Below are positions 40,955 to 44,714 of a stretch of 64,000 nt of DNA, one piece after another. This stretch comes from Natronomonas moolapensis 8.8.11 (lineage in GTDB: Archaea; Halobacteriota; Halobacteria; Halobacteriales; Haloarculaceae). The stretch lies in contig NC_020388.1 of the NCBI RefSeq assembly GCF_000591055.1, positions 1-64,000 of the forward strand, written 5' to 3'. The notes beneath the pieces were generated by a model. That model had not been told where the DNA came from, did no database searches, and saw only the letters and a list, made by a program, of their open reading frames with translations. Both the position numbers and the translations under genes were made by a program. The first letter of the stretch is position 1. The number at the start of each line of letters is the position of its first letter.

Positions 40955-41671
40955 CTACGACTCTTCGGTGAAGCGCTCGGCGCCCGACTCGACGATATCG
41001 TAGGCTTCCTCCGCCGGTCCGATCCCGTTCGTGACCACGTCCGGGTCGTCCTCGAGGTTCTTGTAGGTCTTGAAGAACTCCTCGATCTCCGCGCGTTCGT
41101 GTTCCGGGATGTCCTCTCTGGACTCGACGTGGTCGAGTCGTGGTTCGTCGACGGGCTTGGCGACGATCTTGTCGTCGTCCTCGCCGTCGTCGAGCATCCG
41201 GAGTACGCCGACCGGTTGCACCTCGAGGACGGTGCCGGGCAACAGCGGGTCCTCGAGCAACACCAATACGTCGAGCGGATCGCCGTCGCCGGCGTTCGTC
41301 TGCGGGATGAATCCGTATCCGCCGGGGTATCGGACCTCGCTGTGGAGCATCCGATCGAGTATAATCCCCGGAATCTCCTGACGGTACTCGTATTTGATCC
41401 GCGACCCCATCGGGATCGTCTGGACTCCCATGAACGTCTCGGGAACGGAGCCGTTTTCGAAGTCCTGTTCGACGTCGGTCACCAAGTTCAGTGGTCCTGT
41501 CATAGATTGCGTGTGAACGTTCTGTACCGGCGATGCGTCGGCTCCGGCAGCGGGTGTCGACGAGGCCCCCGCAGTCAGGGAGCCGAGGCCGACGAGGCCG
41601 ACACCCTGCAGCAGCGAGCGTCGACCCATCGTACCGGAGCGTGCGTGGTCGCTGTCTGACCTATCAGACAT
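40955..41671 (-). CDS. Tat-exported inorganic pyrophosphatase (family I)
   Basis: This 238-residue protein has a twin-arginine signal peptide (MGRRSLLQGVG, Arg 17-18, hydrophobic to about 40), then a family I pyrophosphatase core. It keeps the metal ligands in DGDPLDVLVL and DDGEDDDKIV, IKYEY, YPGGYGFIPQ and the FFKTYKNLE signature. Usual soluble pyrophosphatases are cytoplasmic and lack any leader. There is no lipobox Cys, so it should be released or cell-wall associated. The start at 41671 is set by the signal; a longer frame begins at 41749. Exported pyrophosphate hydrolysis is inferred, perhaps for phosphate scavenging. Confidence 0.85.
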   Translation of the reverse strand: MSDRSDSDHARSGTMGRRSLLQGVGLVGLGSLTAGASSTPAAGADASPVQNVHTQSMTGPLNLVTDVEQDFENGSVPETFMGVQTIPMGSRIKYEYRQEIPGIILDRMLHSEVRYPGGYGFIPQTNAGDGDPLDVLVLLEDPLLPGTVLEVQPVGVLRMLDDGEDDDKIVAKPVDEPRLDHVESREDIPEHERAEIEEFFKTYKNLEDDPDVVTNGIGPAEEAYDIVESGAERFTEES

Positions 41672-41824
41672 CGTTTTATTCAGGTGCGAGCTGACACATG
41701 GCCGTTTATAATAGGGGTCTGTTCGGCTATGTGGGCTATGTTCGACCACGTACGTGTCTTTAGATAACGTCGCTTCGGCGGCCGCGCTGCCGATACAGCC
41801 GATTCTCCCCTGCGACAGCCGGGC

Positions 41825-42088
41825 TCACAGCGTCTCGTCGGGGTCGTATCGCTCCCGGACACGCTCGACCTCGTCGGCGTAGTGGTCGCGCGTGTCCTCG
41901 TCCCCGACGGAGTCGATCCGGTCGGCGTCGACCTCGATGGCGGCCGTTATTTCCTTCGAACGGAGCAGTTGTACGCTGAAGTGCTTCACCACGCAGTGGG
42001 CCCCGTCTGGCGTCGCGTAGACGAGCTCGACGAGGGACTCGTCGCCGTACTCGCGCTCGACGAGCCACAGGCGTTCGGTATCGGACAT
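41825..42088 (-). CDS. Conserved haloarchaeal hypothetical protein
   Basis: This 87-residue acidic protein (MSDTERLWLVERE start, VKHFSVQLLRSKEITAAIEV in the middle) has a small alpha/beta appearance with several YGDE-type turns. I recognise it only as a haloarchaeal family without function. It has no membrane or metal motif. It is not in an obvious operon. Confidence 0.7.
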   Translation of the reverse strand: MSDTERLWLVEREYGDESLVELVYATPDGAHCVVKHFSVQLLRSKEITAAIEVDADRIDSVGDEDTRDHYADEVERVRERYDPDETL

Positions 42089-42248: not shown

Positions 42249-43547
42249 TCACAGTCGGTCGAGGAACCGATCGAAGGCCCCCGAATCGGCGTGGACGTGC
42301 GCGTAGGTGCCGAGCGTCCGGTGTTCGGTCAGGCCGTCCTTCTTGTCGACGATCCCGTCGCCGCGCTCGACGTCGAAGGCGAACGTCGCGTCGGGGGCGA
42401 CGTCGGCCTCGGAGTAGTGGAACTCGTGGCCGCGGACTGTCGTCCCGGTATCGGCGGTGAGCGCGTCGTTTCGGGCGCGCAACTCCACGTGGTCGAGCGC
42501 CTGATATCGGTCGCACATCTGCACGTCGGCGGGGAGGACACCGGCCATCCGGTGGGTCCGCCCGTCGGTGTCCGTCAGCGTCTCCGCGAGCGCCATCAGG
42601 CCGCCGCACTCCCCGAGGACGGCCAGTCCATCGGCGGCCCGCTCGCCGAGCTCTCCGAGGGTGCCGCCCGCGGCCAGTGCCCCGCCGTGGAGTTCCGGGT
42701 AGCCGCCGGGGAGGTAGACGCCGTCGCAGGCCGGCAACGGGTCGCCCGCGACGGGCGAAAACGTGACGACCGACGCCCGCTCGCGGAGGCGCTCGACCGT
42801 CGCGGGGTATTTAAAACAGAACGCCCCGTCGTCCGCAACGGCGACAGTCGCGTCCGTCCCGGAACCCGACGGGCGGGTCCCTCCCGGGCGGGGCGGCTCG
42901 CGGGCGACCCCGACGAGCCGTTCGATGTCGACGTGCTCGCTCGCCTCCCGAAGGGTGTCGGTGTCGACTGGGGCCTCCGCGCCCATGTGGAGCCCGAGGT
43001 GGCGCTCGGGGATCGAAAGCTCCGACAGAGGCGGAATCCGCCCCAGGTACGCGAGCCCCTCCGGCAGCGCCTCGCGGATGCCGTCCGCGTGGCGGCCGCC
43101 GTGGGCGCGCTGGGCGAGGACGCCGACGACGTCTATGTCCCGGTCGGCCTCGTCGGCGTATGCCTCGAACCCCAGCGCCGTCGCGGCGACGCTCTCCATG
43201 CCCGCTTTCGCGTCGACGACGAGGACGACGGGCAACCCGAGCGTCTCCGCGACGGCCGCTGTCGAGGTCGTCCCGTCGTAGAGGCCCATCATCCCCTCGA
43301 CGACGCAGACGTCGCCCGACCCGCGCCAGTAGTTGCGGCGACAGCCTTCGTCCCCGGAGAGCCACGGGTCGAGGCTCCGGGACGGCCGATCGCAGACGAC
43401 GGCGTGGTGGCTCGGATCGATGAAGTCCGGGCCGGCCTTCGCGGGCTGGGGGTCGTAGCCGGCGCGCTTCAGCCCGGACAGGACCGAGAGGGCGGCGACC
43501 GTTTTTCCGACACCCGAGGCCGTCCCGGCGAGGACGACACCCTTCAT
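42249..43547 (-). CDS. cbiA: Cobyrinate a,c-diamide synthase
   Basis: This 432-residue enzyme (CbiA/CobB) amidates the a and c side chains of the corrin ring using glutamine and ATP. The N-terminal dethiobiotin-synthetase-like ATPase has [10 protein letters not shown] and [12 protein letters not shown]; the C-terminal glutaminase has the nucleophile in [13 protein letters not shown] and GHEFHYSE. It starts inside the end of cobT (ATGA overlap), so the two are coupled. A TATA-like TTATATAC lies just downstream of its stop and belongs to the other strand. Confidence 0.94.
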
Positions 43548-44593
43548 AACGCCGGCACCTCCCGGTCGGCCTCCGCCAGCAGCCGATCGTACACGTCGCG
43601 GACGCCCGATCGAACGTCGGCCATCGGTACCGACGCCCGCTCGGCCAGCGCCAGCGCCCCGCCCATCCCGACGCCCTCCTTGGCCTCGCCGGCGTTGTAG
43701 GCGGCCATGGCCGGGTGGTCGTCGGTGAACCCGGGATCGGTGACAGTTACCGACAGCTCCAAGCCGTCGGCGGCCCGATCGAGGTCGATAGAGGGATCCT
43801 CGGCGACGAACGAGGTCGTCGCGAGCGACAGCCGCCGGTCGTACCCGCCGTGTCGGAGGCAGGCAGCGGCGGCGACGAGTTGGGTGCCGCCGGCCAGCGT
43901 CACCGCAGTGTCGGTCTCGAGGGCGCCGGCGGCCAGCCCCGAGACGACCGCGAGGGCTGGATCACCCGCGCGACGCAGCGCGACGGTCGGTTCGCCGGCG
44001 GCGTCGCCGGGCGACAGACCCGAAGCAGCGAGGGACTCGGCGACGACTTCGCGTTTCAACCCCAGGGGGTTCTCCGGCAGCGACGACGAGACGACCCCCG
44101 CCTCGGCCGCGTCCCCGGCCGGCCCCAGGACGTCGACCTCTCCGAGCGCGGTCAACACGCCGAGTGCGGTCGTCGTCCCGCCCGGGACCGTCTCGGCGAC
44201 GAACAGCTCGTCATCGGGGAGCGCCCGGCCGAACTGGCGGGCGGCGGCGAACGCTCCCGGCGCGGACGGGACCGGATCCGGCTCGCGGATGTCGTCCCCG
44301 GCGTTGGCCCCGACGGTGACAGTCGGGGCGCCGGTCGGCTCGGCGACCCCGGCGTCGACGACCGTCGTCTCGAGGCCGAGCCGTTCGACGACCGCCCGGG
44401 TGACGACGGCTGGCGTCGGACAGCCGGTCGGCGAGACGGGGACGACCGGGGACCGGACGGTGCGCCCGTAGGTCAGGATCTCGCTGTCGGCGCTCGGCGT
44501 GTGGATCATGAGTTCGGGGTCGGCTCCCGCCGCGCTAATGCCGTCGATCTCGGCGGTGCGGGTGGTCCCGGCACAGAGGACGAGTCGCGTCAT
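43544..44593 (-). CDS. cobT: CobT-like nicotinate-nucleotide phosphoribosyltransferase (UPF0284)
   Basis: This 349-residue protein matches the archaeal CobT/UPF0284 family, which activates the lower-ligand base of cobalamin. Visible stretches are [50 protein letters not shown] and [17 protein letters not shown]. The start at 44593 (MTRLVL) follows the family; ATG 44608 adds five residues. It overlaps cbiA by 4 bp. Identity of the lower-ligand base used here is unknown. Confidence 0.9.
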
Positions 44594-44714
44594 TGCCCCG
44601 TGTTCCACACAGGCGGACTTGAACCCCTCGGACGGGGAGGCCGCAACGCGGGCCGGAGCGTCGGGCGTGTACGGCCGCAGTCCGGCGATCGCCTCGACAG
44701 CCCGGCCGCGTCGA

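Follow-up and report, generated by a model that had tools for sequence, protein, structure and literature searches.

A divergent additional inorganic pyrophosphatase of family I, bearing a predicted Tat leader, in Natronomonas moolapensis and five other haloarchaea

Besides its cytoplasmic enzyme, Natronomonas moolapensis encodes a divergent second inorganic pyrophosphatase (PPase) of family I, which probably is exported through the Tat pathway as a soluble protein and hydrolyzes external pyrophosphate. Family I PPases are treated as cytoplasmic housekeeping enzymes. The gene lies in the first 64 kb of the single-contig 2.91 Mb genome, and this whole stretch of DNA is referred to below as the window. 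The features assigned to the gene are collected in Table 1.

Table 1. Coordinates of the PPase gene and its features in the window.
Feature	Position	Strand	Basis
TATA box TATTATAAA, 42 nt upstream of the ATG	41705..41713	(-)	
CDS (ATG start, 238 aa) of the predicted exported family I PPase	40955..41671	(-)	
Predicted Tat signal peptide, approximately residues 1-44	41540..41671	(-)	Sequence rules and homologous leaders
Twin-arginine codons R17-R18	41618..41623	(-)	Invariant across six homologues
Met57, alternative downstream start giving a cytoplasmic protein, judged not to be used	41501..41503	(-)	
Family I PPase catalytic domain, residues 85-234	40970..41419	(-)	PF00719 match and fold
Codon 85, Thr where E. 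coli has Glu20	41417..41419	(-)	Alignment
Metal-binding signature DGDPLDV, residues 129-135	41267..41287	(-)	Fits D[SGDN]D[PE][LIVMF]D[LIVMGAG]

Enzyme family and fold

The first-pass annotation described this reading frame as an inorganic pyrophosphatase gene, and its extent, strand, and ATG start are correct. The enzyme assignment was borne out as well, and membership in family I is certain. The protein matches PF00719 with an E-value of 1.1e-49 and 168.6 bits (cut-off 23.5), and each of its closest relatives of known structure is a family I PPase. An AlphaFold2 model was built with 28 window and locus sequences. It is confident from approximately residue 61 onwards (10-residue block means of 81-97) and of low confidence before that; among the matches listed, all its PDB matches are PPases, with a target-normalized TM of about 0.82-0.92. 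Residues 129-134 (DGDPLD) satisfy the signature D[SGDN]D[PE][LIVMF]D, the pattern used for DGDPLD and its longer form DGDPLDV being taken from previous work (PMC2916918). Against the inorganic diphosphatase model NF002317 (PRK01250), the protein reaches 142.7 bits, below the required 200, and is a relative, not an equivalog, of that model. Cysteine counts vary among the enzymes compared: the window protein (P0001) has none, the five relatives introduced below (L004, L046-L049) have one each, located in the catalytic domain, and each of the three canonical cytoplasmic enzymes counted has two.

A conserved twin-arginine leader

Residues 15-44 of the window protein read MGRRSLLQGVGLVGLGSLTAGASSTPAAGA. 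The n-region contains the motif GRRSLLQ, R17-R18 are followed by 26 uncharged residues of mild hydrophobicity, and a candidate signal-peptidase site, AGA, is found at residues 42-44, where the leader would be cleaved. A lipobox cysteine 12-21 residues after the twin arginine, the distance given by the published rule (PMC2945643), is absent, as is any cysteine in the whole window protein. The twin-arginine leader that had been proposed for this protein is thus real by sequence rules, and homologues in five other genomes conserve it as well. In all six proteins, the RR pair precedes an uncharged stretch, and conservation of the leader is seen at the protein level, with RR, L21, G23, and G25 invariant. 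Among the upstream extensions of 48 canonical haloarchaeal PPase frames, none carries a comparable RR motif, and of the window's 380 ATG-led open stretches, 11 do (about 3%); the predicted Tat leader exceeds chance expectation.

The TATA box appears well placed ahead of the leader start. The motif TATTATAAA occurs once on the minus strand of the 64-kb window, and in the five relatives this motif or an A+T box resembling it precedes the leader start at a comparable distance. Predicted export is well supported by the conservation of the leader together with this promoter position.

Tat has been termed the predominant secretion route in haloarchaea (PMC2910488) and carries 39-55% of their secreted proteins (PMC2945643). 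Since it is their main, ordinary route, a Tat leader is uninformative on cofactor loading, and the earlier suggestion that the enzyme acquires its cofactor before Tat export is unsupported. Three TatC matches were found in this genome. They are located at G000:C1:313895-316987, approximately 3 kb apart at most, and two of them share one long minus-strand open frame.

A clade of leader-bearing enzymes

Surveying the Halobacteria across roughly 520 distinct genomes, we found a second, leader-bearing PPase in five further genomes (G209, G280, G319, G298, and G306), all from one other family. The clade is thus rare, occurring in 6 of the roughly 520 haloarchaeal genomes, and its members span several genera and two families; no leader-bearing PPase was found in the other searched genomes of N. 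moolapensis's own genus or family. The profile search of the order was read by matches per genome only, as canonical enzymes also passed its cut-off. One apparent two-copy genome, G185, was rejected, its two matches being a single canonical gene read in two frames at the same locus. This canonical PPase (contig C23:13212-13837; L035, L039) appears to be interrupted, close to an ambiguous base of the assembly, by a frameshift or a sequencing error.

The five relatives are 45-50% identical to the window protein and share with it the leader-plus-enzyme layout and the upstream A+T box, but they have other neighbor genes, and two of them retain Glu20. In a tree of 53 catalytic domains, from which the leaders were removed, the six proteins form one group (support 100/96), and the canonical haloarchaeal enzymes form a separate one (100/97). 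The six also group together (100/98) in a second tree that includes bacterial exported enzymes. Judging from these trees, the six exported-type enzymes share an ancestry apart from the canonical cytoplasmic enzyme; long branches leave both the root and the placement with respect to bacteria uncertain.

Canonical and bacterial counterparts

A canonical cytoplasmic PPase occurs in nearly every haloarchaeon, and an intact copy (L001) is also encoded in the N. moolapensis genome. It resembles the window protein in its family I fold, at 14 of 15 active-site positions, and in an overall identity of 47%, but it has no leader, carries Glu at position 20, and belongs to the separate canonical clade.

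Scanning genome contigs outside the haloarchaea yielded cytoplasmic-type enzymes and one exported Streptomyces enzyme. Like the window protein, the enzymes of Streptomyces hainanensis (L044) and Klebsiella pneumoniae (WXJ01781.1; L084) are family I PPases behind an N-terminal signal peptide, as judged by eye; unlike it, they have Sec-type-looking leaders without RR and keep Glu20. The two bacterial enzymes form their own clade (100/98), and a common origin with the haloarchaeal exported PPases is neither shown nor rejected (p-AU 0.23). Almost no literature on secreted or periplasmic family I PPases was found, although a surface location has been suggested for the Mycoplasma suis enzyme (PMC2916918). 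Because exported-looking family I PPases exist in Klebsiella and Streptomyces, export of such an enzyme is not new in itself; what is new is a Tat-type archaeal branch with a variable Glu20 position. The 5.37 Mb K. pneumoniae record that contains L084 (CP125156.1) is labeled "plasmid unnamed2" but, judging from its size, looks like a chromosome, and the exported-looking inorganic diphosphatase in it adjoins adhP.

A variable Glu20 position in the active site

The active site was compared with the E. coli PPase, using a reference sequence identical to 1faj. The positions checked were E20, E98, and thirteen others that are invariant in all six clade members (K29, E31, R43, Y51, Y55, D65, D67, D70, D97, D102, K104, Y141, and K142). 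The catalytic core, previously described as looking intact, is not fully so: 14 of these 15 positions are kept in the window protein, counting as kept the E98 position, which is Asp here as in the canonical haloarchaeal enzymes. The part of the claim that did not stand concerns E20, which is replaced by Thr85. Among the relatives, this position is Glu in G209 and G298, Val in G280 and G319, and Ala in G306, whereas every canonical haloarchaeal and outgroup sequence examined has Glu. Many further positions that are fixed in the canonical enzymes also vary within the six-member clade.

In E. coli PPase, Glu20 belongs to the charged residues that line the active site, and conservative changes at this residue lower but do not abolish activity. 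Published activities of Glu20 variants were not found in the open literature searched. Threonine at this position may lower the activity of the window enzyme, which we nevertheless expect to be catalytically competent, since the other catalytic residues are retained in all six proteins. The clade thereby offers a natural test of how far Glu20 is needed.

Alternative readings

The replacements at the Glu20 position lend themselves to another reading, in which the protein is exported but is a poor pyrophosphatase, its loss of Glu20 reflecting relaxed selection, a changed substrate (tripolyphosphate or some other phosphoanhydride, for instance), or a role in binding. Four of the six enzymes (T, V, V, and A) have lost a glutamate that is otherwise universal among the sequences examined, and the variation at canonically fixed positions points in the same direction. 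The invariance of the 13 other catalytic and metal-binding residues would, however, be unexpected for dead enzymes, and we regard this reading as rather unlikely, though it deserves to be kept in mind. Speculative, and in our view doubtful, is the proposal that the exported clade has departed from the standard active site: with its Glu20 position free to vary, it would work outside the cell in brine, either through an altered arrangement of metals or protons or by acting on another condensed phosphate, such as short polyphosphate, and would supply phosphorus in this way.

Two further readings concern the leader. An exported, active enzyme might not be released but stay anchored in the membrane by a signal peptide that is not cleaved off. 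In lipobox mutants of Haloferax, unprocessed Tat signals can anchor proteins in the membrane (PMC2945643), and in the relatives from G319 and G298 a scripted scan detected no AxA-like site downstream of the h-region. The window protein, in contrast, has AGA sites after its h-region and no lipobox cysteine, which makes anchoring improbable here. Translation from Met57, close to where canonical enzymes start, would instead yield a second cytoplasmic pyrophosphatase of 182 aa and leave the upstream frame untranslated. The G+C content at the second codon position (0.62-0.64 in the leader and 0.34 in the body) did not discriminate whether the leader is coding: the high value fits a signal sequence rich in Ala, Gly, and Ser, but it would fit non-coding DNA as well. 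A start downstream of the RR pair had been named in the first-pass annotation as the outcome that would undo the export prediction. Although Met57 is a possible start, no TATA box was seen in the 60 nt preceding it, while TATA boxes precede the leader start, and the leader is retained as protein in the relatives. A start at Met57 is therefore very improbable.

Proposed function

According to the favored reading of a soluble exported pyrophosphatase, the divergent enzyme would be made in the cytoplasm with its Tat signal, fold there, and be exported in folded form to the S-layer space or the brine. Outside the cell, it would split pyrophosphate into two phosphates with the help of divalent metal, which is plentiful there, and would add to the cytoplasmic enzyme without replacing it. 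The cell might draw phosphate from pyrophosphate or short polyphosphate in its surroundings, or the enzyme might clear pyrophosphate released by other external enzymes. Phosphate scavenging, which had been put forward from the start, is plausible but, with no phosphate gene found beside the PPase gene, a weak proposal.

Haloferax volcanii grows on exogenous polyphosphate (PMC13318637), and external condensed phosphates are therefore a realistic substrate class for haloarchaea. Counting against the external enzyme are the Thr at the Glu20 position, the lack of phosphate genes adjoining it or among the identified neighbors of its relatives (see below), and the failure to find the polyphosphate-degrading activity of H. 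volcanii in its medium (PMC13318637). A search for nucleotide pyrophosphatase/phosphodiesterases, a possible source of external pyrophosphate, gave one strong match. The conserved exported archaeal branch and its bacterial counterparts suggest that it pays some microbes to degrade pyrophosphate or short polyphosphate outside the cell, and the clade ties into how haloarchaea use external polyphosphate.

Genomic context

In the window, the PPase gene seems to stand alone, under a putative promoter of its own. Upstream on the same strand lie an 87-aa ORF, a cobyrinic acid a,c-diamide synthase, and a CobT-like protein, and genes for an ABC exporter, a SLOG protein, and an aspartate kinase converge from the other side. 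No phosphate gene was found adjoining the window PPase, nor were phosphate-related genes found among the identified neighbors of the five relatives. Pho-boxes have been reported in Halobacterium salinarum (PMC6560208). A conserved operon partner was considered and rejected, as the neighbors differ in the 16-17 kb around the five homologues; they include a cupin (G280 and G319), CofD (G209), TctA (G298), and an amine oxidoreductase (G306). The 87-aa ORF just upstream of the PPase gene (41828-42088, minus strand) has no Pfam or NCBIfam match. Next to each other at 42252-44605 (minus strand) are the cobyrinic acid a,c-diamide synthase (CobB/CbiA) and the CobT-like protein, the latter without a Pfam match at 0.001 but with a strong NCBIfam match to a model named "hypothetical protein".
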